Source of the DNA: Bacteroidia bacterium
GTDB taxonomy: Bacteria > Bacteroidota > Bacteroidia > SpSt-205
Assembly: GCA_025059535.1 (NCBI GenBank)
Contig: JANXCX010000024.1
Location: 149,425-213,424 of the forward strand
Length of the DNA stretch: 64,000 nucleotides
Reading direction: 5' to 3'
Each line of letters begins with the position of its first letter. Position 1 is the stretch's first letter. The notes beneath the pieces were generated by a model. The model did no database searches. It saw only the letters and a program-made list of their open reading frames with translations, and was not told the origin of the DNA. Position numbers and translations under genes: made by a program. Shown here piece after piece: positions 1,730 through 63,068 of this stretch.

Positions 1730-1747
1730 TACTTTTGCGCAAAGGTA
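1730..1747. promoter_or_regulatory. divergent, near-palindromic promoter pair (ugd / outer-membrane gene)
   Basis: Two Bacteroidota -7 boxes face away from each other, only 2 bp apart: TACTTTTG on plus (1730-1737, toward ugd at 1751) and TACCTTTG on minus (1747-1740, toward the GTG at 1724). The 18-bp block is a palindrome except for one symmetric position. RNA polymerase can probably occupy only one direction at a time. Confidence 0.65.
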
Positions 1748-1750
1748 CAT

Positions 1751-3109
1751 ATGCAAATCGCTGTCATAGGTGTAGGATATGTAGGCTTAGTTACGGCTGC
1801 GGGCCTAGCGGAATCGGGCAATCGCGTGATAGGATATGATATAGACGCAGGCAAAATAGCGGTACTCCAGCAGGGCCAATCCCCTATTTACGAGCCGGGC
1901 TTGGAGCGGCTGCTGGCCCATAACCTTCACAACCAGCGGCTCCATTTTACGGCTGACTTAGGCGAGGCCCTCCGAGAAGCTGAGCTAATCTTTTTAGCCC
2001 TACCAACTCCCTCTACAGCCGCTGGCGAAGCGGATTTATCCCACGTTTTTGCGGCGGCTGAGAGCATAGCTTCCACCTTACAAGCCCTGGCGCCAGGTTC
2101 CCTACCCTACCGCATCGTGGTTACTAAGAGTACCGTCCCGGTAGGTACGGCCCGCCAGCTCCAAGCCTTCTTTGAGCAGAGGCTCCCTGGGCAGATTCGG
2201 GTGGCCTCTAACCCCGAATTCCTGCGCGAGGGCTTCGCCGTAGAAGATTTCCTCAAACCTGAGCGGGTCATTATCGGGACACCGGACCCCCAAGTGGCTG
2301 AAACGCTGCGGCGCCTCTACCTGCCCTATACCCGCCAAGGCAACCCCATCTACCTCATGGATTGGGAAAGCGCCGAAATGACTAAATATGCCGCCAACGC
2401 CTTTCTGGCCATGCGTATCAGCTTTATGAATGAACTGGCCCGCCTATGCGAAAAGGTAGGCGCTAATATTGATTGGGTGCGTTTAGGTATGGGAGCCGAT
2501 AGCCGAATTGGCCGGCGCTATCTTTTCGCTGGAGTAGGGTATGGCGGTTCCTGCTTCCCAAAAGATACGCGTGCACTTGCTGCCCTGGCCCAAAAGCACC
2601 ATTTGCGCCTCCAGCTGGTAGAAGCGACTATCGCCATAAACGCCAGCCAACGCGCCTTTTTCCTAGAGAAAATCACTGCCTACTACCGAGGCCATCTTCA
2701 GGGGCGCACATTGGCTGTCTGGGGCGTAGCCTTCAAGCCCGATACGGATGATATTCGGGAGGCTCCCTCGCTGGAGATCCTGGCCCAGCTGAGGGCGCAG
2801 GGGGTAACCCTGCGTGTATATGACCCCGTGGCCTTACCCCGCCTGCGGCAAACCTACCCAGATTGGCCGCTTTTCTACGCTACAGAGGCTTATGAAGCCA
2901 CCCAAGGCGCGGAGGCCCTCCTTATCCTTACCGAGTGGAGCGAATTCCGTCAGCCGGACTGGAAACGCCTCCGCGCCAATCTCCACGCACCGGTAATATT
3001 TGATGGGCGCAATCTGTACGACCCCGCCGAAATGGCCAAACTAGGGTTTGATTACCTTTCCATAGGGCGAGCCCCAGTCTATGCTTACTCTACCGCCGCT
3101 GCCTCCTGA
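1751..3109 (+). CDS. ugd: UDP-glucose 6-dehydrogenase
   Basis: Oxidises UDP-glucose to UDP-glucuronate with two NAD+, a cytoplasmic step for polysaccharide or LPS sugars. The 452 residues show the N-terminal Rossmann motif GVGYVGLVTA (residues 7-16), the STVPVGT segment, the SNPEFLREG motif, the central K/N-containing helix EMTKYAANAFLA, the catalytic cysteine C268 in GYGGSCFPKD, and the C-terminal UDP-binding domain with GVAFKPDTDDIREAPS. Length is normal. A -7 box lies at 1730-1737, 13 nt before ATG. The next gene starts inside its last 29 bp, indicating an operon. The neighbouring waaA also serves surface glycans. Confidence 0.97.
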   Translation: MQIAVIGVGYVGLVTAAGLAESGNRVIGYDIDAGKIAVLQQGQSPIYEPGLERLLAHNLHNQRLHFTADLGEALREAELIFLALPTPSTAAGEADLSHVFAAAESIASTLQALAPGSLPYRIVVTKSTVPVGTARQLQAFFEQRLPGQIRVASNPEFLREGFAVEDFLKPERVIIGTPDPQVAETLRRLYLPYTRQGNPIYLMDWESAEMTKYAANAFLAMRISFMNELARLCEKVGANIDWVRLGMGADSRIGRRYLFAGVGYGGSCFPKDTRALAALAQKHHLRLQLVEATIAINASQRAFFLEKITAYYRGHLQGRTLAVWGVAFKPDTDDIREAPSLEILAQLRAQGVTLRVYDPVALPRLRQTYPDWPLFYATEAYEATQGAEALLILTEWSEFRQPDWKRLRANLHAPVIFDGRNLYDPAEMAKLGFDYLSIGRAPVYAYSTAAAS

Positions 3110-3623
3110 GAGCCTTGTGTGGCGTAGCCCCGAGCTACCGCCGCCAACCCCTCTTTTGCTTATAGACCCAGTGAATCCCGAGACAGGAGACGTGTTTGAG
3201 GAGCTTGAGCTCTTTGCCTTTCGCTTAAAGCGCACCTATCCCGAAACCCGCTTAGGGCTCCATCTAACTTACTGGATAGGCGGGCTAGCCTATGGCGAAG
3301 CGTGGGGCGTTGATTTCCTTCTAATCCATGCAGAAGTGTTTCAGAGGCTGCATGGGTTTTTGCCTGATGGCCCTTGGGTAGCAGCGATAGACGGATGGAG
3401 TCCTCCGGCGCCGTGGCACCTTTTGGCCCGAAGCTATGCTCCCGAGGCGACCCAACTGAGCTATGTCAATCGGTATTTAGCCCAGCTTAGCGGCTTTCGG
3501 CGCCGCCTGCCCGACCTAAGGCCAGAAGCCAGTACGCTTTTCCGCACGGTTACTTCTAGAGGGGCATATCACCATTTCAGCCTTTCAGAGCTTCAGGCCC
3601 ATGTGGCTACTCTACGGGGCTAA
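3081..3623 (+). CDS. hypothetical protein overlapping both neighbours
   Basis: 180 residues, soluble, no signal peptide or membrane segment. The start overlaps the end of ugd by 29 bp and the end overlaps the next gene by 23 bp; such tight packing favours a real, co-translated gene. It is rich in Leu, Pro and Arg, with recognisable blocks such as LLLIDPVNPETGDVFEELEL, YWIGGLAYGEAWGVDFLLIH and GPWVAAIDGWSPPAPW. The middle block vaguely recalls glycosyltransferase acceptor regions, but there is no DxD or nucleotide-sugar motif, so I assign no function. It may belong with the UDP-sugar pathway by position only. Confidence 0.7.
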   Translation: MLTLPPLPPESLVWRSPELPPPTPLLLIDPVNPETGDVFEELELFAFRLKRTYPETRLGLHLTYWIGGLAYGEAWGVDFLLIHAEVFQRLHGFLPDGPWVAAIDGWSPPAPWHLLARSYAPEATQLSYVNRYLAQLSGFRRRLPDLRPEASTLFRTVTSRGAYHHFSLSELQAHVATLRG

Positions 3624-4650
3624 TGGCACTACGGGCCGCTTGGTACTGCGGGTTTGGCGGGCGCATTTTCCCGACCTTCCGCCGCCACTTCTGGGCGGAC
3701 GCCGCGAGACCGAACTGCGCGCGCTGGCCCAAGCCTACGGCCTAAGCTATCAGGCCTTTCCCCTAACCACCCTCCAAAACCTTGAGCTGCCTAAGGAGAT
3801 TCGGCTTATTGCTAACCTAGCCGGCCCCTATCGCTATACTAGCGAACCTTGGCTAAAATACTGTCTCCAGCAGGGTCGGGACTACCTAGACATCTGTGGC
3901 GAGTGGCCCGTATTTGCCCAGCTCTACGCGGCGGCGGAGGAGTATGCCCAAAAGGGCCTAGCGGTAATTACAGGGGCAGGTTATGATACAGTAGCGGGTG
4001 AAACGGCTCTAACGCTTTTTCGGGCGCGCTACCCGCAAGCCCAGGACCTACGCCTGGCCATCTATGCGGAAGGCGGCTTTTCGGCCGGTACGGCGCGCGC
4101 AGCTCTAGGCGTGCTCTCAGCAGGCGAAGTCTACTGGCAGGAAGGTCAGCTCCAGCCGGGTCCTACCCAAACCTGCCAATACCGTTTACCCGATGGGCGC
4201 ACGCGTACCTTCCGCTCTGCCCCCCTGGCAGAACTGATTACCTATCCGGCTTGGAATCCCGAACTGCGCACGCTACGCACTTACGTAGGGCTTCCCCCTA
4301 AACTTCAGCGGTGGCAGGGCGTCGTACAATGGCTTAGTAAGCAGGCCATAGTTCAGGCTTTGATAGGCTGGCTGCTAGAGCAGTACCGTACGACCTTGGC
4401 TGATCGGATGACCTTAACAGGCCGCGCCTATGCTATAGCGGATAGCATAGGAGCTCCAGCCTATGGGGTCTTTGAAAGTCCCCAGCCTTACTGGGCTACC
4501 GCTTGGCTGGTGCTGCGCAGCCTCCAGCTTTACCTAAAGGAAGGGGCAGCTGCAGGCGTAGCCAGCGCCTTTGCCCGATGGCAAAAGGCCCTGTGGGAGG
4601 GCCTCCCTACCCAAATCCACTGGCAGCCCAAAACTACCCCTCAAGGATAA
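3601..4650 (+). CDS. saccharopine dehydrogenase-like NAD(P)-binding protein
   Basis: 349 residues. The N-terminus MWLLYGANGTTGRLV is a Rossmann fold of the saccharopine dehydrogenase / trans-acting enoyl reductase type (GATGxTGRL in relatives). It is followed by LIANLAGPYRY, then YLDICGEWPVF and VITGAGYDTVAGE, all in the family order. Relatives include lysine-pathway enzymes and polyketide-linked enoyl reductases, so the substrate is open. It overlaps the upstream unknown gene by 23 bp, so the pair with ugd forms a three-gene operon, and it overlaps the end of convergent prs by 10 bp. Confidence 0.82.
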   Translation: MWLLYGANGTTGRLVLRVWRAHFPDLPPPLLGGRRETELRALAQAYGLSYQAFPLTTLQNLELPKEIRLIANLAGPYRYTSEPWLKYCLQQGRDYLDICGEWPVFAQLYAAAEEYAQKGLAVITGAGYDTVAGETALTLFRARYPQAQDLRLAIYAEGGFSAGTARAALGVLSAGEVYWQEGQLQPGPTQTCQYRLPDGRTRTFRSAPLAELITYPAWNPELRTLRTYVGLPPKLQRWQGVVQWLSKQAIVQALIGWLLEQYRTTLADRMTLTGRAYAIADSIGAPAYGVFESPQPYWATAWLVLRSLQLYLKEGAAAGVASAFARWQKALWEGLPTQIHWQPKTTPQG

Positions 4651-5579: not shown

Positions 5580-5584
5580 ACCAG

Positions 5585-5655
5585 TTGCCCGGGGAGGATT
5601 CGAACCCCCACACGCAGACCCAAAATCTGCTGTCCTACCGTTAGACGACCGGGCA
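5585..5655 (-). tRNA. tRNA-Gln (anticodon TTG)
   Basis: 71 nt cloverleaf on the minus strand: acceptor TGCCCGG pairs with CCGGGCA and is followed by discriminator A. The D arm contains AACGGTAGGAC. The anticodon stem GCAGA/TCTGC holds loop TTTTGGG with anticodon TTG (reads CAA). The T arm has GGTTCGAAT. CCA is not encoded. A -7 box TATCTTTG lies 7 nt upstream (5670-5663). Confidence 0.97.
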
Positions 5656-5662
5656 GCGACCA

Positions 5663-5670
5663 CAAAGATA
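5663..5670 (-). promoter_or_regulatory. -7 promoter box for tRNA-Gln/prs
   Basis: TATCTTTG on the minus strand matches the Bacteroidota consensus TAnnTTTG; the tRNA 5' end is 7 nt downstream, where transcription should begin. Confidence 0.7.
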
Positions 5671-5741
5671 CAAACTTTCGCCTAATGCGGCCCTACCCTT
5701 TTTCCCCCACTCAGGCGGCTACCTATTTGGCCCCAACATTC

Positions 5742-5749
5742 TACCTTTG
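5742..5749 (+). promoter_or_regulatory. -7 promoter box for the M23 peptidase gene
   Basis: TACCTTTG, 6 nt before ATG 5756. A TTG reading of the start would begin inside the box (5747), so ATG 5756 is preferred. Confidence 0.65.
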
Positions 5750-5755
5750 CGGGTA

Positions 5756-6577
5756 ATGGGGGTTTTTATTTTACTCCTCAGTCTAGGAGGGTTCGGAAGG
5801 GATAGTAGCAAAGTCTTTGCCTTCTCCCCACGAAAACTCTATGAAGGCTTAGAAAAGCTCTCTGAGCAGTTGCCTAAGATGTGGTGGGATCGCCGGTGCT
5901 TAGCTCCTTTCAGACCCCAGGATATTACGGCGCTGCTTGCGCCTAACCTGCCTATTACTATCAAATTGCAGGCTTCAGAAGAGACGCTATCGTTCGTAGT
6001 GCCTGTACGAGGCGCCCTAAACTCGGGCTTTGGCTTTCGGTGGGGATGGCAATTCCACTATGGCCTAGATATAGACCTTCACTGGGGCGATACGGTCGTA
6101 GCCGCTATGGATGGCGAGGTACGGCTAGCAGGTTACGACCCAGGCGGCTACGGCTACTACTGCGTGATCGCGCACCCAAATGGTTTGGAAACTGTTTATG
6201 GCCATTTTTCTCGCCTCCTTGTAACGCCTGAAACCCAAGTCAAAGCTGGTCAGCCCATCGGCCTGGGCGGAAGCACTGGCCTGAGCACTGGCCCTCATCT
6301 CCACTTTGAAGTACGCTTTCTCGGAGAACCGATAGATGTGAGCGCCCTGATAGATTTTCCTAATGGCCAGCTCTTAGAGCGCGAACTGCACCTGAGCCGG
6401 GAGACCTTTGGGCACCTAAAAACACTTCGGAATGCGGTGTATCACACCGTACGTCCCGGCGAGTGCCTTTCGGTTATAGCCCGCCGTTATCGGGTTTCTG
6501 TAGGGTATTTGTGCCGTTTGAATGGCCTTTCCCCCCGAAGTGTGCTGCGGGTGGGACAGCGCCTCCGCATTCGATGA
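5756..6577 (+). CDS. M23-family peptidoglycan endopeptidase with C-terminal LysM
   Basis: Exported zinc metallopeptidase that should cut peptidoglycan cross-links or act as a divisome/elongation factor. Signal sequence MGVFILLLSLGGFG, a linker, then the lysostaphin-like M23 domain: LNSGFGFRWG, the zinc ligands in HYGLDID, the YGHFSRL segment and HLHFEV (HxH). The last ~45 residues form a LysM peptidoglycan-binding repeat (YHTVRPGECLSVIARRY ... VGQRLRIR). Unlike degenerate M23 proteins such as EnvC, the metal-binding His/Asp/His set is present, so it is probably catalytic. Its TGA overlaps the ATG of pth (ATGA), so both are co-translated. Confidence 0.92.
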   Translation: MGVFILLLSLGGFGRDSSKVFAFSPRKLYEGLEKLSEQLPKMWWDRRCLAPFRPQDITALLAPNLPITIKLQASEETLSFVVPVRGALNSGFGFRWGWQFHYGLDIDLHWGDTVVAAMDGEVRLAGYDPGGYGYYCVIAHPNGLETVYGHFSRLLVTPETQVKAGQPIGLGGSTGLSTGPHLHFEVRFLGEPIDVSALIDFPNGQLLERELHLSRETFGHLKTLRNAVYHTVRPGECLSVIARRYRVSVGYLCRLNGLSPRSVLRVGQRLRIR

Positions 6578-7161: not shown

Positions 7162-7236
7162 TCCCCACTTATATTTAGGGCCTTCTTAGTTTTCTTCTTT
7201 TTAGGCTGAATTGGACGGATGAGTGGATTTTAGGGT

Positions 7237-8074: not shown

Positions 8075-8083
8075 ACCACGCCT

Positions 8084-8091
8084 TACCTTTG
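8084..8091 (+). promoter_or_regulatory. -7 promoter box for panD
   Basis: TACCTTTG, 5 nt before the GTG at 8097. It supports 8097 over the in-frame GTG at 8094. Confidence 0.65.
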
Positions 8092-8096
8092 CAGTG

Positions 8097-9383: not shown

Positions 9384-9391
9384 TATCTTTG
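9384..9391 (+). promoter_or_regulatory. -7 promoter box for the beta-helix gene
   Basis: TATCTTTG, 7 nt before ATG 9399. Confidence 0.65.
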
Positions 9392-12924: not shown

Positions 12925-12932
12925 TATATTTG
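12925..12932 (+). promoter_or_regulatory. -7 promoter box for nuoB
   Basis: TATATTTG, 3 nt before ATG 12936; the mRNA should be leaderless. Confidence 0.65.
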
Positions 12933-14937: not shown

Positions 14938-14954
14938 CAAATATAGTATCTTGG
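14938..14954. promoter_or_regulatory. back-to-back divergent -7 boxes
   Basis: Minus strand TATATTTG (14945-14938, 6 nt before ATG 14931) and plus strand TATCTTGG (14947-14954, one mismatch to TAnnTTTG, 4 nt before ATG 14959) are separated by 1 bp. Each promoter's upstream element would fall in the other gene. Confidence 0.6.
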
Positions 14955-18127: not shown

Positions 18128-18135
18128 CAAAGGTA
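18128..18135 (-). promoter_or_regulatory. -7 promoter box for lipA
   Basis: TACCTTTG on minus, 7 nt before ATG 18120. The -33 position falls inside the terminator hairpin of the upstream CUB gene (18144-18169). Confidence 0.65.
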
Positions 18136-18177: not shown

Positions 18178-21100
18178 CTATAGCGTGATAACCCACCGCA
18201 GGAAGGTGCGCTCCCCGTTACTGAGATGCACCTCCACGGTATAAACGCCCCCGCTTAGAGCTTCTAAGTACCAGCGGTGTTTTTCCTCTATACCTTCCCA
18301 GACCAGCTTGCCGTAGGTGTCCCAAATCCGCACGCGCTGGATAGGCAGGTCAGCCTCCAGCCAGGCCCCACCGCGGCTCGGATTAGGGTGGAGGGTCACC
18401 CTTATACCTGCCGAAAGCCCAGGAAGGGAATTCGGGGGAGGCGGCACATCCTCACACTCAATCCGGGCCTCCCAACCAAATAGACTATCCGCCGCATTTG
18501 CACGGAAGGCAAATGTAAGAACCCTACCTGTACTAGTAATTGCAGGAGGCAGGGTAGAGCCATGGTAAGCCCCTATCTGACGGGCGGAGGTACCTTCGCC
18601 ATCATACGCCCAGAGCGTATCGCCGCTTCCAAGCGCAAAGGCTGAGAAAGTAACCTTCAGCCGCTTACCCGACGGCGCTCGGAAGATAGCCATACTTGTA
18701 TCCCTACCCTGATAGAGGTCAACTGGACCACCTCCGTCATAGAAAGTAGCGCCATTACCGCAGCAGTTTTCCGCCGCTAAGTCCACATCCAGCGTATCCC
18801 TATAAGGCATCAGATAGGTACAAGCTGGATAGCCTATGCAGCGCAGCCGAGCCGCCCATCCCGCGTCGGACGTATTGTCCGACGAGCGAAACTCAAAGGT
18901 AAGATACCGGCCAGAGCTCTGGATCACAGGCGGCAGAGTCGTCCCAGAGTACTGTCCTATTAGATTCGCCGTGCGTCCAAATCCATCAAATACCCGTAGA
19001 ATATCCTGATTAGCCTCGGTGGCAAATTGAGAAAAGGTGGCCTCTATTCTTTCGCCATAAGGAGCTTGGAAGATGATTAGCTTGTTTTGATTATCACCAT
19101 AATTTCTATTAGGCCCCCCGCTATCGTAGAAGTTAGCGCCGCCGCAACAATCCTCCTGCGTTAGGTCTATCACGGCACTATCTGCCTGAAGCACATAGCT
19201 GCAGGGGGCGATACACGAAATCGTAGCTTCCCACCCTGCACCCGTAATGCTTCCATCGGAGCGGAAACGGAAGGTGAGCGCATTACCCGTGCTTGTTAGC
19301 TCTACTGGCATAGAGGGCGTACCACGCAGGGTGATAAGCCGAGGGGAGGATAGTTCATCCGCACCGTCATATACTACGAGCGAGTCGCAGCAGTTTTCGG
19401 AGGCGAAGCTAGTGAAGACCACTCTCAGGCGATGGCGCGGCGGTGCAAGGAAAGTCAGGCCGCGTGACTCGCTATTGCTATAATTCGCCGTAGGCCCGCC
19501 GCTATCGTAGAAGCGCACCTCATCGCAGCAGGCTTCTTCCCCTAAATCAATTGTCCCACTGCGCATAGTGTAAATGCAAGGCACAAAACAGGAGATGGAG
19601 GCGCCCCATCCTGCCGCATTACCTGAGCCATTGGAAACAAACCGGAACGTAATATACCGCCCGCGTGCCCGAATAGGTTGGGCCGGAGGGGTATTACCAC
19701 TCAGACGGGCTAAAATAGGGCTATTCGCGTCCTGACCATCATGCACAAATAGAGTATCCCCGTCTAGAAGTTCTAGCTGGAAGAAACTAAAGGCGGCGCG
19801 CTGGCCTTCAGGCGCCATAAAGGTGATAGTGCGATTCTCGTTATCCCCATAGTTCCCGCCGAGATTTCCACTATCGTAGAAGACGGCGTCGCCACAGCAG
19901 TTATTTTGCGCTAGGTCTATCACCTGAGGAGAGGCAGGCATAGTGAAAGTACAAGCAGCGGGTGGAGCCACGCAGCTTAGGCGCGCCGCCCAGCCACTTC
20001 TCACAACGCTTCCATCTGAGGTGAATCGGATAGTCAGAGCACGGCCGGTACTGGTTATTGGAGCGGGTACGGTACTTCCCGAAAAGCGCCCTAACTGCGT
20101 CCCACCTGTACCTACTCCATCATACACTTCCAGCCAATCATAGTTAGTCTCCGTATTGAAGGCCGTAAATTCCAAGCGCAGCCGCTGCCCTAAAGGCGCT
20201 AAGAAAGTGGTTGTTTGGTTTTCGTTATTAGAGTAGTTACCTGCAGGTCCGCCGCTATCGTAGAAGTTTAGACCATCACAGCAGTTCTCTCCGCCCAGGT
20301 CTACCGTAAGGCCATTAGTCATGTTGTATATGCAGGGGACGAAGCAGCTTACCTCGGCTATCCATCCAGCAGCGGTGCCGGCACTATTAGAGACGAAACG
20401 GAAGGTGATACTTTGCCCGCTACTGCGCAGGACCGAAGGAAGAGTAGTACCGCTCAACCGGGCAACAATTGGTGCGGCCGCATCTGGGCCATCATGAACG
20501 TACAGCGTATCTCCCGACGCTACCTGGAAGGCGCCAAAATCTACACGTACCCGCTGTCCCGAAGGCGCCGTGAAGGTAATCTGGCGGTCCTCATTATCCC
20601 CATAACCCCCCGCCTCACTCCCGCTATCGTAGAATACGCCACCTCCACAGCAGCCGGCCGTACTTAGGTCTACATTCTGCGTAGCGGCGTTTAGAACGAA
20701 AGTGCAACCCGGCGACATAGGTACGCAACGCACCTGAGCAGCCCAGCCCGAGGCGGCAGTAGAGAAATTGGATTGGAAGCGCACGGTGAGGGCACGTCCG
20801 CTACTGGTCAGGGTAGGCGGCAGCGTATTACCCGAGAAGCGCCCTAAACGGGTCCCGCTCGTGCCCACTCCCTCAAACACCTCCAGCGTATCTACATTAG
20901 GCTCGGTATTGAAGCTGGAGAAGCTCAGCTCTACGCGCTGCCCTAAGGGAGCTACAAATGTTACGGTAGCATTTTGGCCATTACCGTAGTCGCCCGAGGG
21001 GCCACCGCTATCAAAGAAGTTGAGTCCGCCGCAGCAGTCCCGCTGGGCAATCTCCACCGTCGTGGTACCGGTAGCTGGCATGACAAAAGTGCAGCGCTCA

Positions 21101-24100
21101 TAGCAGCCCACCCGCGCCCCCCATCCAGCAGCGGTACCTGAAGCATTAGAGACAAATCGGAAGGTAAGCTGCTGCCTATTTCCCCGAATCAGAGGCGGTA
21201 AGTCCGTACCCGAATAAGCCCCCAGGCGCGGCGCATTTAGATCAGCCCCATCATACACATATAGCGTATCCCCTTCAGCTAAATTGAAGGCAAAGAAGCG
21301 CACTTCTACTCCCTGGCCAACAGGAGCTTCAAAGGTAATAGTCTCATCTACGCTATTCCCATAATCCGCCCCTAAGCCGCCATCATCATAGAAGTGCGCT
21401 AGACCGCAGCAGCCTAAAGTCCCTAGCTCTACCCGGCGCGTGCTAAGATTGAAGATGCAGCCGGGAGTGGGGGTAGCACAACTAACCGAAGCGGCCCAGC
21501 CTAGCCTGTTAACACTACCATCGCTTTGGAAGCGAAAAGTGAGGACGTTCGTAGAACTCAAAAGAGTAGGAGGCAGAGTAGTACCCGTGAAACGGCCGAG
21601 GCGCGGCGCATTCACATCAGCCCCATCAAAGGCCTCTAGCACATCATAATTATTTTCCGTCGTGAAGGCGGAGAATTCTACCCGCACATGCTGACCTACC
21701 GGCGCCGTGAAGGTAACTACCCCATTTTCACCATTGGTGTAGTTACCGGGCTGATCAGAGGTCGTAGCACTACCCCCAGAGCCACCACTATCAAAGAAAT
21801 TGAGTCCTCCACAGCAGTCACGTTCACCTATAGCTACGGTAGCGCTGCCGGTGCGCGGCATGGTGTAGATGCAGCGCTCATAGCACGCTATGCGCGCCGC
21901 CCAGCCCGCCGCATTGCCAGAACCGTTGGAAATAAAGCGGAAAGTAAGCCGCTGCCTACTTCCGCGAATTACGGGCGGTAGGTTAGTACCCGAGTAAGCT
22001 CCGATCAGAGGGGCACTGAGATCAGCCCCATCATACACATATAGCGTATCCCCAGCTAGCAAGCTAAAAGCAATAAAACGCACTTCTACCCCTTGTCCCA
22101 CCGGGGCGATAAAGGTTAGGATATCATCTATATTGTCCCCATAATTTCCTACCGAGCCGCCATCATCGTAAAATACCCCTACCCCACAACAGGAATTCGC
22201 CGCCACATCTACCTGAGTCGTCTGCATAGTGAAGATACAGGCGGGTGGAGGCGTAACGCAGGAAACCACCGCCTCCCATCCAGCGGCTACGACTGTGGCA
22301 TTCGAGCGGAAACGAAATGTTAGGGCTTCAGTACTACTTGTAAGCACGGGGGGAAGCGCAGCACCTGAATAAACCCCCAGCCGTGTAGCGTTAGCATCCG
22401 GCCCATCGAAAACTTCCAGCGTATCTTGATTGAGCTGGGTATTGAAAGAATTGAATTGCACGCGTACAAATTCACCCGGTGGAGCCAAAAAGGTCAAGGT
22501 AAGGTTTTCATTATTAGCATAGTTTCCGTTGGGGCCACCCGTATCGTAGAAGCGTATCCCACCACAGCCCTCTTGGGCGGCTAAATCAAATGTGCCGTTC
22601 TGCATGAGAACTTGGCGAGGGTAGCAGCGCACTACGGCAAACCAGCCCGCCCTTTCCGCAGCGGCATCCGAGACAAACTGAAATGTAAGGGCGCCCCGGC
22701 TGCTACGCAGGAGCGGCGGAAGGGTTGAGCCTGTATAGGTACCTATCAGGGGGTCTGAAGTGGAGGCGCCATCATACACCCGTAATTCATCTCCCGCTCC
22801 AAGGTCAAAGGTATTGAAGCGCACCTCTACTCCTTGGCCCGAAGGCGCGCGAAAGGTTAGAACATGGCTAGCGTTGGCGCTATAGTCGCCGCTCAGCCCG
22901 CCATCATCGTAGAAATGAGCTAAGCCGCAGCAGCCCGTCGCGCCTAAATCTACCGTCTGAGTACTCATAGGAAAGATACAGGCTGAGGCAGGACTTACGC
23001 AGGAAAGGGCAGCTTCCCAGCCCAACCGATTAACGGAGCCATCAGACCGAAAGCGAAAAGTAAGTGCATTAGAAGTACTGATGAGCGTCGGCGGCAGCGC
23101 TGTACCCATAAACCGCCCTAAGCGGGGCGCACTCGTATTGGGGCCATCAAATACCTCAAGACTATCGTAGTTATTCTCCGTCGTAAAGGCCGAGAACACT
23201 ACCCGCACATGTTGGCCTAATGGCGCAGTAAAGGTCATAACGGCATTTTCGTTATTCATGTAATTACCCGACGCACCGCTGGTAGTAGCGCTTCCGCCAG
23301 GTCCGCCACTATCGTAGAAATTCGCCCCGCCGCAGCAGACCTCAGCGGCTAAATCCACAGTAACGCCATTTTGCATGGAATATTGGCAGGGTACAAAGCA
23401 TTGAAGTAGAGCGATCCATCCTCCTGCCGTACCAGCTCCATCCGAGACAAAGCGAAAAGTAAGGTGGGAGCCCGTACTCCGGATAGTTTGAGGGGTATTC
23501 CCGCTAAGGCGCGCAATCACGGGTGCCGCCGTATTAGGCCCATCATGGACATAAAGCGTGTCCCCCGTTAAGAGGTCCATTACCCCAAATTCAGCCCTTA
23601 GGCGCTGACCCGCTGGAGCGGCAAAGGTTATGGTGCGGTCCTCTCCATCCCCATACCCACTGCCATCCCCACCACTATCGTAGAAGAGAGCTGAACCACA
23701 GCAGCTATTAGCGCTTAGGTCTATATCTTGATGGGTAGATAGTAGGGTGAAAGTACAGGCCGCTGCAGGAGACACGCAGCTTACCCGTGCTACCCAGCCG
23801 CTCCTTACTTCACTAACATCTGAGGTAAAGCGCACCGTCAGCGCAGGGCCACTGCTTGTAAGAGGCCCAGGCACCGTAGTGCCTGAAAACCGACCTAACA
23901 GGGGAGACCCGGTATTCGGGCCATCATATACCTCCAGCCAGTCAAAGCCCGCCTCCGTATTGAAAGCGCTAAACTCCAGGCGAATCCGCTGCCCAAAGGA
24001 TGCGCGAAATGTCATGGTGAAGTTCTGGTTATTGCCATAATTCCCCGAGGGACCGCCCGAATCGTAAAAGTCAGCCCCACTGCAGCAGCCGCTTGCCACC

Positions 24101-24201
24101 AGATCTACAGTGGTATTACTGATATTGTAGCTGCATTGCGCATATACCCCATACCCTACAGCTAAGCAAGCCCCCAGTAGGCTGCGGATAAAGGTTGGCA
24201 T
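18178..24201 (-). CDS. giant secreted protein of 15 tandem CUB domains with T9SS type A sorting domain
   Basis: 2007 residues from ATG 24201. A start at 24228 would include the promoter box as codons, so the second Met (MPTFIRSLLGACLAVGYG) is used; a signal peptide ends near VYAQ. Fifteen CUB-like units of ~115-130 residues follow, each with Cys or CC followed by FYDSGG/FYDDGG, a Y(G/S)xN(E/Q)N turn, LEVYDG or LYVYDG, a G.(F/Y)(S/T)G loop, L(T/I)FRF(V/R)S and a final GW.A.(V/I)SC. Units alternate between two flavours. In CUB domains such acidic residues (YDG, D) bind Ca2+, so Ca2+-dependent carbohydrate or protein binding is likely. The tail has LHPNPSRGGAW and a final beta-strand domain (VYTVEVHLSNG), the T9SS signal. 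Confidence 0.9.
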   Translation of the reverse strand: MPTFIRSLLGACLAVGYGVYAQCSYNISNTTVDLVASGCCSGADFYDSGGPSGNYGNNQNFTMTFRASFGQRIRLEFSAFNTEAGFDWLEVYDGPNTGSPLLGRFSGTTVPGPLTSSGPALTVRFTSDVSEVRSGWVARVSCVSPAAACTFTLLSTHQDIDLSANSCCGSALFYDSGGDGSGYGDGEDRTITFAAPAGQRLRAEFGVMDLLTGDTLYVHDGPNTAAPVIARLSGNTPQTIRSTGSHLTFRFVSDGAGTAGGWIALLQCFVPCQYSMQNGVTVDLAAEVCCGGANFYDSGGPGGSATTSGASGNYMNNENAVMTFTAPLGQHVRVVFSAFTTENNYDSLEVFDGPNTSAPRLGRFMGTALPPTLISTSNALTFRFRSDGSVNRLGWEAALSCVSPASACIFPMSTQTVDLGATGCCGLAHFYDDGGLSGDYSANASHVLTFRAPSGQGVEVRFNTFDLGAGDELRVYDGASTSDPLIGTYTGSTLPPLLRSSRGALTFQFVSDAAAERAGWFAVVRCYPRQVLMQNGTFDLAAQEGCGGIRFYDTGGPNGNYANNENLTLTFLAPPGEFVRVQFNSFNTQLNQDTLEVFDGPDANATRLGVYSGAALPPVLTSSTEALTFRFRSNATVVAAGWEAVVSCVTPPPACIFTMQTTQVDVAANSCCGVGVFYDDGGSVGNYGDNIDDILTFIAPVGQGVEVRFIAFSLLAGDTLYVYDGADLSAPLIGAYSGTNLPPVIRGSRQRLTFRFISNGSGNAAGWAARIACYERCIYTMPRTGSATVAIGERDCCGGLNFFDSGGSGGSATTSDQPGNYTNGENGVVTFTAPVGQHVRVEFSAFTTENNYDVLEAFDGADVNAPRLGRFTGTTLPPTLLSSTNVLTFRFQSDGSVNRLGWAASVSCATPTPGCIFNLSTRRVELGTLGCCGLAHFYDDGGLGADYGNSVDETITFEAPVGQGVEVRFFAFNLAEGDTLYVYDGADLNAPRLGAYSGTDLPPLIRGNRQQLTFRFVSNASGTAAGWGARVGCYERCTFVMPATGTTTVEIAQRDCCGGLNFFDSGGPSGDYGNGQNATVTFVAPLGQRVELSFSSFNTEPNVDTLEVFEGVGTSGTRLGRFSGNTLPPTLTSSGRALTVRFQSNFSTAASGWAAQVRCVPMSPGCTFVLNAATQNVDLSTAGCCGGGVFYDSGSEAGGYGDNEDRQITFTAPSGQRVRVDFGAFQVASGDTLYVHDGPDAAAPIVARLSGTTLPSVLRSSGQSITFRFVSNSAGTAAGWIAEVSCFVPCIYNMTNGLTVDLGGENCCDGLNFYDSGGPAGNYSNNENQTTTFLAPLGQRLRLEFTAFNTETNYDWLEVYDGVGTGGTQLGRFSGSTVPAPITSTGRALTIRFTSDGSVVRSGWAARLSCVAPPAACTFTMPASPQVIDLAQNNCCGDAVFYDSGNLGGNYGDNENRTITFMAPEGQRAAFSFFQLELLDGDTLFVHDGQDANSPILARLSGNTPPAQPIRARGRYITFRFVSNGSGNAAGWGASISCFVPCIYTMRSGTIDLGEEACCDEVRFYDSGGPTANYSNSESRGLTFLAPPRHRLRVVFTSFASENCCDSLVVYDGADELSSPRLITLRGTPSMPVELTSTGNALTFRFRSDGSITGAGWEATISCIAPCSYVLQADSAVIDLTQEDCCGGANFYDSGGPNRNYGDNQNKLIIFQAPYGERIEATFSQFATEANQDILRVFDGFGRTANLIGQYSGTTLPPVIQSSGRYLTFEFRSSDNTSDAGWAARLRCIGYPACTYLMPYRDTLDVDLAAENCCGNGATFYDGGGPVDLYQGRDTSMAIFRAPSGKRLKVTFSAFALGSGDTLWAYDGEGTSARQIGAYHGSTLPPAITSTGRVLTFAFRANAADSLFGWEARIECEDVPPPPNSLPGLSAGIRVTLHPNPSRGGAWLEADLPIQRVRIWDTYGKLVWEGIEEKHRWYLEALSGGVYTVEVHLSNGERTFLRWVITL

Positions 24202-24205
24202 GCGG

Positions 24206-24213
24206 CAAAGATA
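24206..24213 (-). promoter_or_regulatory. -7 promoter box for the CUB gene
   Basis: TATCTTTG on minus, 4 nt before ATG 24201; it fixes the start codon. Confidence 0.68.
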
Positions 24214-24273
24214 AGCATCCTGAGCCATTCCTATTCTGGCCAGCCAAAATTACCTTAGCTAAGTTGGGATTTG

Positions 24274-25927: not shown

Positions 25928-25935
25928 TATTTTTG
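25928..25935 (+). promoter_or_regulatory. -7 promoter box
   Basis: TATTTTTG, 5 nt before ATG 25941. Confidence 0.6.
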
Positions 25936-31012: not shown

Positions 31013-31020
31013 CAAAGGTA
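31013..31020 (-). promoter_or_regulatory. -7 promoter box for the 31007 barrel gene
   Basis: TACCTTTG on minus, 5 nt before ATG 31007. It excludes the upstream Met (31043) as the start. Confidence 0.67.
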
Positions 31021-32240: not shown

Positions 32241-32248
32241 TACCTTTG
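32241..32248 (+). promoter_or_regulatory. -7 promoter box
   Basis: TACCTTTG, 9 nt before ATG 32258; an upstream TTG (32246) overlaps the box and is rejected. Confidence 0.62.
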
Positions 32249-32841: not shown

Positions 32842-32849
32842 TATATTTG
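32842..32849 (+). promoter_or_regulatory. -7 promoter box for the fatty-acid hydroxylase gene
   Basis: TATATTTG, 4 nt before ATG 32854, which excludes the longer frame from 32704. Confidence 0.67.
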
Positions 32850-36915: not shown

Positions 36916-36923
36916 CAAATTTA
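36916..36923 (-). promoter_or_regulatory. -7 box for dsbD, overlapping the stop codon of the upstream gene
   Basis: TAAATTTG on minus, 7 nt before ATG 36908. The TAA is the stop codon of the DUF4442 gene. Confidence 0.6.
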
Positions 36924-39480: not shown

Positions 39481-39828
39481 TCAGGAGATGTGGGCTAAAA
39501 TCCGCCGCTCTAGCGCTGGACCGGGCAGGGCCCCCACAATCTTATCTACTGGATGCCCGCCGCGATATAAAATCAACGTGGGTATAGCCTGAATATAATA
39601 CTGCGAGGGGATAAAAGAGTTTTCATCCACATTCATTTTGGCTATCTTGATTTTGCCTGCATACTTTCTGGCGATTTCGTCCAAGACAGGCGCAATCATT
39701 CGGCATGGACCGCACCAAGGCGCCCAAAAATCCACCAGCACGGGTATAGGGCTCTGCAAAACCTCCTTGGCAAAGGTTGAATCCGTAACCACCACAGGTT
39801 TGTCTAAAGGTGTTGTAGGCTGTTGCAT
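39481..39828 (-). CDS. trxA: thioredoxin
   Basis: 115 residues. Active site WCGPC with C39 and C42 in [15 protein letters not shown], then MNVDEN and the cis-proline loop [11 protein letters not shown]. Cytoplasmic reductant for ribonucleotide reductase, methionine sulfoxide reductase and the DsbD-like protein encoded 3 kb away. Own promoter TATTTTTG 11 nt upstream. First of a run: trxA, accA, ferredoxin reductase, DUF4442. Confidence 0.97.
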
Positions 39829-39839: not shown

Positions 39840-39847
39840 CAAAAATA
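39840..39847 (-). promoter_or_regulatory. -7 promoter box for trxA
   Basis: TATTTTTG on minus, 11 nt before ATG 39828. Confidence 0.58.
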
Positions 39848-43478: not shown

Positions 43479-43486
43479 TACCTTTG
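43479..43486 (+). promoter_or_regulatory. -7 promoter box for the first TonB receptor
   Basis: TACCTTTG, 3 nt before the GTG at 43490; it excludes the 32 additional upstream codons of the open frame. Confidence 0.65.
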
Positions 43487-56385: not shown

Positions 56386-56413
56386 ACCCTAAAATTAACA
56401 GAAAATACCTTGC

Positions 56414-56421
56414 TAACTTTG
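56414..56421 (+). promoter_or_regulatory. -7 promoter box for the TPR gene
   Basis: TAACTTTG, 5 nt before ATG 56427. Confidence 0.65.
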
Positions 56422-56426
56422 CTGCC

Positions 56427-57149: not shown

Positions 57150-57155
57150 CTTGCT

Positions 57156-57163
57156 TACCTTAG
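57156..57163 (+). promoter_or_regulatory. -7-like promoter box for the metallophosphoesterase gene
   Basis: TACCTTAG (one mismatch to TAnnTTTG), 4 nt before the GTG at 57168. Confidence 0.45.
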
Positions 57164-57167
57164 GGCT

Positions 57168-59262: not shown

Positions 59263-59840
59263 TATTTCAGCGGCGGGATGTTTATTTGTGGCTGTTAGGC
59301 GGCTCAGCAGGTAGCTTCAATCCCATCCGGCGTTTTATCCAGCAAATGCCCTTTCAAGTACATGTGGCGATCGTCGTATGCATGCATCGGCTACGCTCCC
59401 TACGAATGGGCATGGTAGAAGCCATGGGAGGGACCCAAGGGTGGGTTGTTTTAGAGCCGGACGATAAAACGATAATCCAAGGGGGTCATATTTATATTGC
59501 GCCGGCGGATTATCACCTACTTGTGGAGCCGGAGGGGTATTTCAGTCTGTCGGTAGATGAGCCCGTGCATTTTTCTCGGCCAAGCATTGATGTGCTCTTG
59601 GAGGCGGTGGTAGGGGCTCGTTGGCCGCGTGCTGGCGCTGCGCTGCTTTCAGGGGCCAACAAAGATGGCGCCTGGGGGCTCTACCGCATGTACCGGGCTG
59701 GCTACTTTACCGCCGTCCAGGAGCCCAGCGATGCAGAAATGCCCACTATGCCCCAAGCCGCCCTGAGCCTCTTTGAGCCCCACCGCCGCTTTACCGCCGA
59801 TCGCCTAGTAGAGGTCTGCCTGTATGCGCTATCTTTGTAA
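59259..59840 (+). CDS. cheB: CheB-type protein-glutamate methylesterase (catalytic domain only)
   Basis: 193 residues, equal to the CheB C-terminal domain. Catalytic set: Ser in LGGSAGSFNPI, His in VCMHRLRSL, Asp in SGANKDGAWGL; GHIYIAPADYHLLVE and RPSIDVLLEA are family marks. The receiver domain of standard CheB is missing, so it is not switched by CheA; activity would be constitutive or controlled another way. Co-translated with cheR. Confidence 0.92.
   Translation: MIFQRRDVYLWLLGGSAGSFNPIRRFIQQMPFQVHVAIVVCMHRLRSLRMGMVEAMGGTQGWVVLEPDDKTIIQGGHIYIAPADYHLLVEPEGYFSLSVDEPVHFSRPSIDVLLEAVVGARWPRAGAALLSGANKDGAWGLYRMYRAGYFTAVQEPSDAEMPTMPQAALSLFEPHRRFTADRLVEVCLYALSL
59830..59837 (+). promoter_or_regulatory. 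-7 box in the end of cheB for the PEBP gene
   Basis: TATCTTTG inside the last codons of cheB, 12 nt before ATG 59850. It could start a separate transcript for the PEBP-PAS/SpoIIE-SiaB-SiaC part. Confidence 0.5.
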
Positions 59841-59849
59841 AATAAGTTT

Positions 59850-60329
59850 ATGCCTGCGGCAATGTGGCTGGGCCTATGGTGGCTTCAGCTTCGCGTAACT
59901 ATAGTTGGCTTCAATCCGGGCGATTTCCTTTCGGTGGATCACACCTGTGATGGGGCTAACCTTCCCCTCACGGTGCAGTGGAAAGGCGCCCCACCCCAGA
60001 CCGAAGCCTACGTTGTGCGGATGTATGACCCCGATGCCCCCGGCGATACCTTCACCCACTGGTTAGTGTATAATCTCACAGGCGAAGAGCTAAAGCCAAG
60101 CCTCCCCGGGCTTTTAGAAGGGTATAATGACTTTGGCCAACTTGGGTATGGCGGTCCCTGCCCGCCACCACGAGATCAAGCCCATCGCTACGTAGTAGAA
60201 GTTTATGCGCTTCGGCGGCCCCTTCGGATTACCCCACCCGTTACCTGGAAGCGGGTCCGCTCCCTCCTAGAAGATAAAGTCTTAGCCCGCGGCGAGACTT
60301 TCGTGCGGTACAAACGCACGCGCCGCTGA
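59850..60329 (+). CDS. PEBP family protein (YbhB/YbcL type)
   Basis: 159 residues with a short N-terminal hydrophobic stretch (MPAAMWLGLWWLQLRVTIVG), so export is possible. Phosphatidylethanolamine-binding signature: VRMYDPDAPGDTFTHWLVYN, then GYGGPCPPPRDQAHRYVVEVYAL. It has the YbhB-type short length. Its stop shares one base with the start of the next gene (TGATG), so it is translated with the sensor phosphatase; the role is unknown. Confidence 0.9.
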   Translation: MPAAMWLGLWWLQLRVTIVGFNPGDFLSVDHTCDGANLPLTVQWKGAPPQTEAYVVRMYDPDAPGDTFTHWLVYNLTGEELKPSLPGLLEGYNDFGQLGYGGPCPPPRDQAHRYVVEVYALRRPLRITPPVTWKRVRSLLEDKVLARGETFVRYKRTRR

Positions 60330-63052
60330 TGCGCCGATGGGGCTTAGCCGAATATCTGGGCATCGGCTTAGCGGGGCTCATCCTCCTTCTAGGGGGGCTT
60401 TTTCTAGTCGGCCTCTGGATCATTACCCAGCGCGATACCGCCCTCCTGACAAGTAGCCCCGCCTGGGAGAAATGGGACAAACTCTTCCTTGTGTGGGTAT
60501 ATGGGATCCTTTTGGCTCTTTTTATCCTTCCGCTAGGTTTGGGCCTGTGGTGGTGGCAGCACATAGCCCGAGGCGTACTGCGTATTCGGGACAAGCTGCG
60601 GGCCCTCCTCTACGAGGGCACAGGAACGATGCCCCTGCCTAAAGCCCCCACCGAAATAGCCGACATCTGGCGCTACATAGAATCTTTGGAAGAAATAGGG
60701 CAATTTCTGAATGAGGTAGTTTCAGGCAAGCGTCAAAGCAATTCCCCGGCTAGTGCGGAGTGGCCCCCTCTGGTGCGCGCCTTGGCCCTGCAAATCTTAG
60801 AAGAGCTTACCACCGCCCGGCGGGAACGCCACGAGCTTCAGGAACTGCTTAGCGAAGGCTTGAAGCTTCTGGAATTGGCTCAGCGGACACCGAATAAAGA
60901 AGCGTATCTCGCCCAAGCGGGGCCACGATTTTTGACCTATGCAGGGGCAGCCATGGGCGCTTTCTACCACTTAGAAGGAAGCCACCTACGCCGCTTATAC
61001 GCCTACGCTTACCCGCTCTCAGCCCCGAGCGTATTAGAACTGGGTGAGGGTTGGATAGGTCAAGTTGCGCGCGAGGGCAGCCTCCTCTGGCTTAAGGAGG
61101 TGCCCGCCACCTATCAGACGGCCCTTTCGGGTCTAGGGGGAGCAGCCCCTACCGCTTTGGCGATTATGCCCGTGATTGCTGGCCAGACTATCCGAGGCGT
61201 CTGGGATATCGCCACCTTCAGCGAATGGGAACCACACCGCATGCAGCTTACCGAGCGCCTTTTGGTTTTCTTCAGTCTCGGCTATATGCTTCAAGAGGAG
61301 GCCGAAGCGCAGCGAACCCTTCAAGAAAAGCTCCAAGCCCAACAAGCCGCCCAGCAAGAGCTAGCCACGCAGCTTGACCAGCTGCGAAACACCTTAGTAA
61401 GCCTGCAAGAAACCCACATCACCCTCCAGCACAAACTCCATGAAGCCCAAACCCAAGCCGAAGTCCTCAACCGCAAACTCTTCCTTGAGCGCGAGCGCTG
61501 GAAAAACCTCGTAGAGCACCTTTCCGAAGCGGTAGTGCTTTTTGACTCTACAGGGCGCCCACGCTACATGAGCCCGACGACTTTCCGCCTGCTCGGATAC
61601 AGCGAAAATGAGCTGCAGGTTTTCTTCCGGGCTGTAGAGCGCACGGATATTGAGGCGGTTCATGCCTACTTCCAGCAGCTGCGCCTGTCTTCGGAAACAC
61701 TCCGGCTCCGTTTCCGCTACCGCCATCGCGACGGTTACACGCTCTGGCTGGAAGCAGTAGGCAAAAACTACCTGCAAGATCCCAGCTTAGAAAGCATCCT
61801 TCTCGTTTTGCGCAACGTAACCGAGGAAGTAGAATACGAAAAGCAGTATCGTACCCGCCTTAAATTCCAATCGCTTGTGGAAAATTCGCCTGACATTATC
61901 TTCCGGGCGGACCGGACAGGGCAATTTCTCTACATAAACCCCACAATAGAGCGCTATACCGGTTACGCGCCTACCCATTACATTCGGAATACGATTTATT
62001 CAGTGGGATTTTCTTTAGAGGAGGTGCGATTTTGGGAGCATTTTATTCACTTAGTATTGGATAGTATGATGGTTCAATCGGCGGAGGTGGATTTTCCGTC
62101 GGTTTTTGGGATACGGCGCATGGCCGTGCGCGGGATTCCCGAACCCGGTCCCGAAGGCGAGGTGGAGACGGCAGTGATCCTTCTGCAGGATATTACCGAG
62201 CTTCGGCACGCCCAAGAGCAGCTACGGCTACAAAATGAGCGCCTAGAGCAGGCTCGGCGCGCCTTAGAAAGCCAAAAGAAAGAGCTGGAGGAGAAGAACC
62301 GGGATATTATGGAGAGCATTAGCTATGCGCGGCGCATTCAAGGAGCGCTTTTACCCGGCGAAGCAGGCCTACGCCAGCTTTTTCCGGATAGCTTCCTTCT
62401 ACACTGGTTGCGGGACGTAGTGGGAGGTGATTTCTACTGGTATGGGGAAGTGAAGGAGCAGAAGGTAGTAGCGGTAGTAGATTGTACGGGGCATGGAGTG
62501 CCTGGCGCTTTTATGACCTTTCTGGGCTATACGCTCTTAGAAGCGGCTATCCGAGAACGCCAGCTTTTAGACCCCGCGCAAATCTTAGGCTTCATGGATA
62601 GGCGGCTGCGGGAACTTCTGGCAGGGCAAGAAACAATGCAGGATGGGATGGATGTGGCGTTATGCGTAGTGGATACGCAGCGGCGGGTATTGCGGTTTGC
62701 GGGGGCGCATCGGCCGCTCTTACTTTATCGCGAAGGGCGATGGCAGCTCCTCCCGGGCGCGCCAACGGGCTTAGGCGGCGCAACTTGGCTGGATAGCGTG
62801 AAAGCTTTCCATACCCATACGCTCACCTTTGAAAAAGGCGATCAGCTCTACCTTTATACCGACGGCTATTTAGACCAATTCAGTGCGGATGGGCAGCGGC
62901 GCTACTCGCACCGACGCTTCCGAAATTTCCTTATGACCTGGGGCCATCTGCCTATGGAAGAGCAGCACAGGCTCCTCTTGGAAGAACTGCGTCAGTGGAT
63001 GGGGAATACCCACCCCACGGATGATATTACGGTAATCGGTTTGCGTTTGTGA
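60329..63052 (+). CDS. PAS/GAF sensor with SpoIIE-type PP2C phosphatase (SiaA-like)
   Basis: 907 residues. Two helices (~8-32 and ~50-72) with a short periplasmic loop; GAF (~190-320), a Gln/Ala-rich coiled coil (~320-390), PAS (~391-500), PAS (~509-620), coiled coil, and PP2C (~690-905). PP2C metal residues appear as DVVGGDFYW, VVDCTGHGVPGAFM, QDGMDVALCVVD and THPTDDITV. The coiled coil has QQAAQQELATQ (~335-347), which resembles chemoreceptor methylation spacing. SiaB- and SiaC-like genes follow directly, so this is most likely the SiaA-type phosphatase of the partner switch. Co-translated with the PEBP gene. Confidence 0.92.
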   Translation: MRRWGLAEYLGIGLAGLILLLGGLFLVGLWIITQRDTALLTSSPAWEKWDKLFLVWVYGILLALFILPLGLGLWWWQHIARGVLRIRDKLRALLYEGTGTMPLPKAPTEIADIWRYIESLEEIGQFLNEVVSGKRQSNSPASAEWPPLVRALALQILEELTTARRERHELQELLSEGLKLLELAQRTPNKEAYLAQAGPRFLTYAGAAMGAFYHLEGSHLRRLYAYAYPLSAPSVLELGEGWIGQVAREGSLLWLKEVPATYQTALSGLGGAAPTALAIMPVIAGQTIRGVWDIATFSEWEPHRMQLTERLLVFFSLGYMLQEEAEAQRTLQEKLQAQQAAQQELATQLDQLRNTLVSLQETHITLQHKLHEAQTQAEVLNRKLFLERERWKNLVEHLSEAVVLFDSTGRPRYMSPTTFRLLGYSENELQVFFRAVERTDIEAVHAYFQQLRLSSETLRLRFRYRHRDGYTLWLEAVGKNYLQDPSLESILLVLRNVTEEVEYEKQYRTRLKFQSLVENSPDIIFRADRTGQFLYINPTIERYTGYAPTHYIRNTIYSVGFSLEEVRFWEHFIHLVLDSMMVQSAEVDFPSVFGIRRMAVRGIPEPGPEGEVETAVILLQDITELRHAQEQLRLQNERLEQARRALESQKKELEEKNRDIMESISYARRIQGALLPGEAGLRQLFPDSFLLHWLRDVVGGDFYWYGEVKEQKVVAVVDCTGHGVPGAFMTFLGYTLLEAAIRERQLLDPAQILGFMDRRLRELLAGQETMQDGMDVALCVVDTQRRVLRFAGAHRPLLLYREGRWQLLPGAPTGLGGATWLDSVKAFHTHTLTFEKGDQLYLYTDGYLDQFSADGQRRYSHRRFRNFLMTWGHLPMEEQHRLLLEELRQWMGNTHPTDDITVIGLRL

Positions 63053-63060
63053 GAGTTTGG

Positions 63061-63068
63061 TATATTTG
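63061..63068 (+). promoter_or_regulatory. -7 promoter box for siaB-siaC
   Basis: TATATTTG, 8 nt before ATG 63077. A TTTG at 63040-63043, 17 bp upstream, fits the Bacteroidota -33 element. Confidence 0.62.

Follow-up and report, generated by a model that had tools for sequence, protein, structure and literature searches.

In one family of Bacteroidia (f1), the main promoter box, TAnnTTTG (TANNTTTG), abuts the starts of about half of all genes heading transcription units, and the messages of these genes probably start at the first codon or no more than a few letters away from it. The reading that best explains the observations as a whole, and that we consider very likely from the DNA sequence, is that a -7 box is placed against the coding region, that the polymerase begins some 5 nt beyond the last G of this box, and that translation initiates in a leaderless or near-leaderless manner.

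The box observation was made, and is confirmed, in the window, by which we mean the whole 64,000-nt stretch of DNA that was analysed, taken from a Bacteroidia genome (G000) of 1.9155 Mb in 25 contigs. The five nearest named loci belong to MAGs called Bacteroidia (SKW103, SKYB95, SKYB7, KatS3mg025, and SKW77), whose proteins are 69-74% identical to the one encoded at 1751-3109 of the window. Judging from names of this kind, these MAGs presumably come from hot springs.

Boxes and start codons in the window

The window holds 51 exact boxes, compared with 29.1 +/- 5.4 in dinucleotide shuffles. By script, 14 of the 51 stand 3-9 nt upstream of an in-frame ATG or GTG at a called gene start, as against a mean of 0.25 and a maximum of 3 in 10,000 trials of random placement, and 10 of the 25 spaced genes of the window (defined in the next section) carry a box at this distance. 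The scripted figure of 14 takes in GTG 1694, which is without support in relatives, and omits the starts at 5756 and 14931; a manual count gives 15 exact boxes at 3-9 nt from a start (Table 1). Additional exact boxes precede tRNA-Gln and, at 11-15 nt, the four genes that start at 39828, 59850, 1751, and 1724. The last of these genes (972-1724) may alternatively be read from GTG 1694, which lies 6 nt after an exact box. In five relatives of the 1751 gene, box spacings are 12-21 nt.

Table 1. Exact TAnnTTTG boxes before genes of the window, with positions counted from its first letter and distances counted from the last G of the box
Box	Position	Strand	Distance and start	Gene and remarks
TACTTTTG	1730..1737	+	13 nt before ATG 1751	UDP-glucose dehydrogenase family; putative short-leader exception
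TACCTTTG	1740..1747	-	15 nt before GTG 1724	gene 972-1724; faces the box at 1730..1737
TATCTTTG	5663..5670	-	7 nt before mature 5' end of tRNA-Gln (5584-5655)	same promoter at a stable RNA gene
TACCTTTG	5742..5749	+	6 nt before ATG 5756	M23 peptidase, LysM
TACCTTTG	8084..8091	+	5 nt before GTG 8097	panD
TATCTTTG	9384..9391	+	7 nt before ATG 9399	1090 aa, without Pfam match
TATATTTG	12925..12932	+	3 nt before ATG 12936	NADH oxidoreductase 20 kDa subunit, nuoB
TATATTTG	14938..14945	-	6 nt before ATG 14931	123 aa, without Pfam match
TACCTTTG	18128..18135	-	7 nt before ATG 18120	lipoyl synthase
TATCTTTG	24206..24213	-	4 nt before ATG 24201	2007 aa, 14 CUB stretches
TAATTTTG	24245..24252	-	16 nt before in-frame ATG 24228	second box of the same CUB gene
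TATTTTTG	25928..25935	+	5 nt before ATG 25941	346 aa, without Pfam match; close behind same-strand gene
TACCTTTG	31013..31020	-	5 nt before ATG 31007	184 aa, without Pfam match
TACCTTTG	32241..32248	+	9 nt before ATG 32258	190 aa, without Pfam match
TATATTTG	32842..32849	+	4 nt before ATG 32854	fatty acid hydroxylase; longer frame opens upstream of box
TAAATTTG	36916..36923	-	7 nt before ATG 36908	DsbD-like
TATTTTTG	39840..39847	-	11 nt before ATG 39828	thioredoxin; putative short-leader case
TACCTTTG	43479..43486	+	3 nt before GTG 43490	CarbopepD_reg_2 protein, 937 aa; longer frame opens upstream of box
TAACTTTG	56414..56421	+	5 nt before ATG 56427	TPR protein
TATCTTTG	59830..59837	+	12 nt before ATG 59850	PEBP family; putative short-leader case
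TATATTTG	63061..63068	+	8 nt before ATG 63077	DUF6272

All 12 spacings given by an earlier, sequence-only reading of this DNA were reproduced (nuoB and the 43490 gene, 3 nt; the CUB gene and the fatty acid hydroxylase, 4; panD, the TPR gene, and the 31007 gene, 5; M23, 6; dsbD, lipA, and the 9399 gene, 7; the DUF6272 gene, there called siaB, 8). Its description of the boxes as preceding first genes is loose with regard to four of the 15 starts (25941, 32854, 36908, and 63077), which overlap a called same-strand upstream gene or lie at most 20 nt from it; boxes at 3-9 nt before such closely following genes must be read as promoters within operons. It had also stated that boxes overrule longer open frames in at least eight genes, a count that is reached only if starts inside or after the box are included. 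Possible starts upstream of the box do exist for 24201, 31007, 32854, and 43490, and for the 972 gene only by way of GTG 1694. The box 4 nt before 24201 in the CUB gene stands, but 24201 is not the only boxed choice, as a second exact box lies upstream. The 43490 gene had been taken for a TonB receptor; its product matches Pfam CarbopepD_reg_2 and shows no TonB-receptor domain at E <= 0.001.

Two loci of the window deserve mention in their own right. The CUB gene (18178-24201) encodes a protein of 2007 aa with 14 CUB-domain stretches (Pfam), which to our knowledge is unusual in a bacterium. The divergent genes 972-1724 and 1751-3109 have in common a palindrome at 1730-1747 that consists of two facing boxes (TACTTTTG-CG-CAAAGGTA), such that the start of each transcript would fall within the box of the opposite gene. 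Both boxes are exact in four of five relatives, and the fifth (L023) has a variant. Facing boxes were considered as a general class and dropped, since only two with a gap of 0-5 nt occur in 864 kb of G000.

Box-to-start spacing in the source genome and its relatives

Genes were called from stop-to-stop frames and codon bias with a home-made caller, which missed some short genes. Box-blind starts were provided by single-start genes, in which the first ATG lies within 60 nt of the upstream in-frame stop and the next 45 nt are without ATG or GTG; the box takes no part in this selection. Genes were classed as spaced if the gap to the preceding gene on their own strand exceeded 20 nt or if their neighbour lay on the opposite strand. 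Samples comprised 864 kb of G000, 400 kb of a relative in the same family (G005; a single contig of 2,268,343 bases), stretches from other relatives, and, for other Bacteroidota, those of the loci L026-L100 that are over 8 kb (65 of 75), nearly all of which are named Bacteroidota.

Enrichment of the box at 3-9 nt over a shuffled control, the check that the sequence-only reading had proposed, was found at box-blind starts in every sample of the family. An exact box at this distance precedes 42 of the 111 spaced single-start genes of G000 (mean 0.54 and maximum 4 in 100 dinucleotide shuffles), 24 of 48 in G005 (shuffles 0.21), and 16 of 36 in other relatives (0.14), while boxes at 10-86 nt number 14, 5, and 2, respectively. 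Closely following genes of G000 have a box at 3-9 nt in 16 of 159 cases and at 10-86 nt in 3 of 159. In other Bacteroidota, the corresponding figures are 25 of 259 (shuffles 1.42) and 74, and because these loci all surround one gene, some of the 25 boxed cases represent the same gene in several species. The contrast between the family and other Bacteroidota is one of degree, with a minority of close boxes elsewhere and a large share here: the same promoter geometry is found outside the family too, and what sets the family apart is how often it occurs at coding starts.

A matrix built from 50 sites of relatives, with a threshold passed by 2% of shuffles and set per sample, was applied to G000. 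It placed 58 of the 111 spaced genes above the threshold, leaving 53 without such a box, and found none of 111 in a register 40-46 nt upstream. The same pair of counts was 28 and 7 of 159 for closely following genes and 35 and 15 of 259 for other Bacteroidota. Without the single-start filter, a box stands 3-9 nt before an in-frame ATG 69 times in 464 kb of G000, 70-71 times in G005, and 35 times in the relatives, versus 2, 1, and 0 times before an out-of-frame ATG. Internal methionine codons have a box at this distance in 1 of 1309 and 3 of 1108 cases in two samples. Start codons after the box (ATG/GTG/TTG) numbered 69/23/0 in G000, 70-71/11/2 in G005, and 35/10/0 in the relatives, counted by a script that favours ATG where several fit.

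The commonest spacing before in-frame ATG is 4 nt (32 of 69 in G000, 28 of 71 in G005, and 11 of 35 in the relatives), and 4 and 5 nt share the highest count in the smallest box-blind sample. A spacing of 3 nt accounts for 11 of 175 in-frame ATG cases; nuoB and the 43490 gene are among the genes with this spacing. A second peak at 7 nt in the single-start sample is only faintly visible in the larger in-frame count, where 6, 7, and 8 nt have 21, 29, and 10 cases over three samples, and it is not claimed.

The pattern is widespread in the family. In all 12 family genomes, TANNTTTG-N4-ATG has 133-223 matches versus 2-23 for the reversed pattern, an excess of 8- to 95-fold, and the N6 version has 32-76 versus 3-22 in 11 relatives. 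In f2, the other family of the order, the N4 pattern gives 50 versus 39, and of its 11 spaced single-start genes 6 are boxed at 5-9 nt and none at 10-86 nt. When 296 genomes of the phylum with a completeness of at least 90% were surveyed, G000 gave 152 versus 6; many others had a modest excess, which reached 4-fold in Bacteroidia, and one other family (f43) had an excess of up to 7-fold from few matches. Among 18 survey rows picked by eye, G000 had the largest excess per Mb (76), followed by G071 (43). G071, G144, and G173, which lie outside the order and have raised counts, were considered as sharers of the pattern and rejected, having a box in 2 of 16, 2 of 23, and 0 of 6 spaced genes in 63-80 kb each. 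Two further genomes, G013 and G020, were raised at 6 nt (135 versus 48 and 20 versus 1), with thin samples in which 1 of 4 and 0 of 1 spaced genes were boxed.

Individual genes retain the arrangement across relatives. Of 167 boxed G000 genes, 36 have an orthologue in the sampled stretches of relatives, and in 32 of 39 orthologue pairs, by a count that is not box-blind, a start no more than five codons away from the aligned one has a box at 3-9 nt. The start codon is exactly at the aligned place in only 23 of 39; the flanking DNA has largely changed, and in several pairs box and start codon have shifted as a unit. Of the seven misses, four concern the 972 gene, for which the script used a GTG absent from relatives. 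The thiC gene, found in 11 of the 12 family genomes, has an exact box in nine of them (at 4, 5, 4, 4, 7, 4, 6, 6, and 5 nt) and one-mismatch boxes, read by eye, at 6 nt in G002 and 4 nt in G007; in f2 its box is 23 nt away. An exact box lies 5-7 nt before the ATG of rpsU in 8 of 11 stretches (G006, G011, G002, G010, G005, G004, G001, and G007, the last three read by eye); in G000 a one-mismatch box lies at 5 nt, G003 was misaligned, and G012 gave no hit.

The box as a promoter and the case for leaderless initiation

The same box precedes tRNA genes that are first in their arrays, standing 4-10 nt before the mature end in 18 of 20 cases in G000 and at 6, 8, and 11 nt in 3 of 3 in G005, while none of nine later tRNAs of arrays has one; this identifies the box as a promoter. 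Close boxes at tRNA genes are not special to the family, as six first tRNAs outside the order have boxes at 10, 10, 10 (and 34), 53, 26, and 4 nt, and the one first tRNA of f2 has a box at 9 nt. In two tRNAs of G000 the mature end is exactly 4 nt after the box, so that transcription there begins no later than the fifth base after the G. Among genes of G000 and G005 with a spacing of 6-9 nt, this fifth base is a purine in 25 of 33 (15 and 18 of 33 for its neighbours). If transcription does start 5 nt after the box, the transcripts of tRNA-Asn and one tRNA-Ser of G000 would lack a 5' leader and open with the first base of the mature tRNA, even though the genome has an RNase P RNA.

TAnnTTTG is common to the mapped promoters described for Flavobacterium johnsoniae (PMC6847099), Bacteroides thetaiotaomicron (PMC7366714), and Flavobacterium psychrophilum (PMC9723704). 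In 219 boxed starts, which were selected for the exact core, G makes up only 12% and 6% at the nn positions, the DNA 12-16 nt upstream of the last G is A/T-rich, and no information corresponding to a -33 TTTG element is seen near G-28. The account of F. johnsoniae describes the same features, namely avoidance of G at nn, A/T-rich upstream DNA, and a -33 element that is not evident (PMC6847099), and the lack of the -33 element therefore does not decide membership among sigma-A promoters. A search with an RpoD model gave one match per genome searched, which in G000 was a frame of 292 aa that scored below the curated RpoD cut-off; this agrees with the short, divergent RpoD-like sigma factor that goes with the Bacteroidota sigma-A promoter.

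The proposed mechanism starts from TAnnTTTG as the -7 element of the Bacteroidota housekeeping sigma factor, which in f1 lies right against the coding region in about half of the genes heading transcription units. RNA polymerase would initiate some 5 nt past the final G of this element, and we infer both this exact start and leaderless translation itself from the position of the box. The distance from -7 element to transcription start given for F. johnsoniae is 4 or 5 nt, and the commonest spacing from box to ATG here, 4 nt, equals it (PMC6847099). On the simplest reading, with such a start, the first transcribed base of genes with a spacing of 4 nt would be the A or G of the start codon, leaving no leader, and a spacing of 5-9 nt would leave a leader of 1-5 nt; a spacing of 3 nt needs a transcription start one base closer. 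The ribosome would then initiate on a 5'-terminal or near-terminal AUG or GUG without a Shine-Dalgarno (SD) sequence.

Several alternative explanations bear on parts of this mechanism. Leaders that were very short though never absent (2-10 nt), in which ribosomes used the few upstream bases, would involve no real leaderless initiation, and such leaders would accord with the 104 of 175 boxed in-frame ATG codons that have a spacing other than 4 nt and with the sister family f2, where none of six boxes is at 4 nt. We nevertheless regard this as unlikely, because 4 nt is the mode or joint mode in every f1 sample and 1-5 nt of leader are too few for the usual upstream ribosome site. It is highly improbable that the box is instead a translation signal (a U-rich ribosome or S1 site) within an ordinary leader whose promoter lies further upstream. 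The box does stand where a ribosome site would be, and 16 of the 159 closely following genes have one. Its frequency before these genes is nevertheless lower by a factor of nearly four, untranslated tRNA genes have it at a similar distance (18 of 20), its sequence is the consensus published for the sigma factor, and nothing is found in the register 40-46 nt upstream (0 of 111).

A choice of start codons by eye could be circular, and ordinary promoters might have been paired with wrong starts while the true ones lie downstream, behind leaders of normal length. We give this scarcely any credence, since genes with a lone in-frame ATG near the upstream stop yield the same result, the panD product aligns to its Pfam profile (1-113) from residue 1, and the thiC and rpsU starts agree across relatives. 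Chance or base composition has a negligible probability: TTTG and TA are frequent words, but dinucleotide shuffles, the frame control, the reversed-pattern control, and random placement exclude it. Leaderless or near-leaderless initiation from an abutting promoter remains our preferred explanation, and the proposal of the sequence-only reading that first genes are leaderless is supported by these data, with the reservation that its word "wholesale" is too strong, as exact and near-consensus boxes together cover about half of the spaced genes (58 of 111).

Leaderless bacterial lineages are known; what is new is a putative one in a phylum whose three mapped members have short or absent leaders in 4-13%. 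According to these reports, 87% of F. johnsoniae leaders are longer than 10 nt (PMC6847099), B. thetaiotaomicron leaders have a median of 32 nt with about 3.7% under 10 nt (PMC7366714), and F. psychrophilum leaders have a median of 24 nt with 5.5% leaderless (PMC9723704), so that leaders in the three are about 24-33 nt (median or mean). In contrast, most boxes within 86 nt of spaced single-start genes here would leave 0-5 nt. A genome survey, as cited, gives averages of 19.2% and 39.4% leaderless genes in Actinobacteria and Deinococcus-Thermus, in which, as here, a -10-type element lies about one box length before the start of many genes; the element there is TANNNT, whereas here it is the Bacteroidota -7 box (PMC3160421). 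The same source counts leaderless genes in 1 of 37 Bacteroidetes/Chlorobi genomes, at 2.4% of that genome's genes, and its reference was the Pribnow box, so that leaderless genes with TAnnTTTG could be missed (PMC3160421). Leaderless mRNAs have also been suggested for the phylum from an A/T bias at -20 to -10, in an article that calls their fraction high, citing others (PMC5397173). That proposal, as described there, rests on nucleotide frequencies in four species of the phylum, whereas the three mapped transcriptomes report few. The literature covered, which lies outside preprints and most subscription papers, yielded no description of a Bacteroidota lineage whose genes are mainly leaderless.

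Leader elements and translation start sites

If leaders were gone, leader RNAs should be gone as well, and this prediction was tested. No TPP riboswitch was found at E <= 0.001 in the 12 family genomes or in the one f2 genome, in searches that, for many family and non-family genomes alike, scored a fraction of the first-look candidates, and in family genomes that are 66-99% complete; the same searches found one in 18 of 18 other Bacteroidia, 12 of which were over the Rfam cut-off. Likewise, in searches of the same scope, the cobalamin riboswitch was found in none of the 12 family genomes, in the one f2 genome, and in 17 of 18 other Bacteroidia. The presence of thiC argues against loss of the pathway as the reason for the absence of the TPP riboswitch. 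Because f2 is also without this riboswitch while its thiC box is 23 nt away, loss of the TPP riboswitch may be older than the leaderless state. Rfam scans at the gathering score, which covered G000 and G005, found no leader element in 844 of 864 kb of G000, where they detected tRNAs, RNase P RNA, and a small SRP RNA, and only RNase P RNA and tRNAs in 140 kb of G005. On balance, we lean towards the view that f1 has made leaderless initiation its default and given up control through 5' leaders.

The sequence-only reading had noted a lack of SD sequences, and no excess of them was found in any class of gene. For G000, G005, and relatives together, strong SD words occur in 1 of 82 spaced unboxed genes (1.4 expected), in 5 of 175 closely following unboxed genes (2.9 expected), and in 0 of 82 boxed genes (0.4 expected), the last figure telling little because the box itself fills the SD region. 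Members of the phylum are described as keeping the anti-SD while hardly using SD sequences (PMC3155529, PMC10783764). In F. johnsoniae and related bacteria, rpsU is reported to have a strong SD (PMC10783764), in contrast to its start 5-7 nt after the box in f1. A 16S rRNA model (RF00177) had no match in G000 or in single-contig G005, in a search that succeeded in just 9 of 14 control genomes. In G005, the tRNA-Ile/Ala pair is immediately preceded by a promoter box of its own, and thus seemingly does not lie behind a 16S gene.

A family whose recognisable promoters mostly lie as close to the start codon as they can offers a natural contrast for studying how ribosomes choose starts without SD sequences. 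If the proposal is true, start codons in such genomes could be called from the promoter box, gene finders that rely on ribosome-binding-site signals may misplace starts, and regulation based on leaders should be scarce, which the riboswitch result fits.

A further observation concerns the base directly before ATG in closely following unboxed genes, which is T in 62 of 143 in G000 (864 kb) and 36 of 59 in G005 (400 kb), compared with 31% and 27%, respectively, before internal ATG codons. A T at this place could lengthen pairing with the loop of the initiator tRNA. In the other relatives, T precedes ATG in only 10 of 33 such genes (24% before internal ATG codons).
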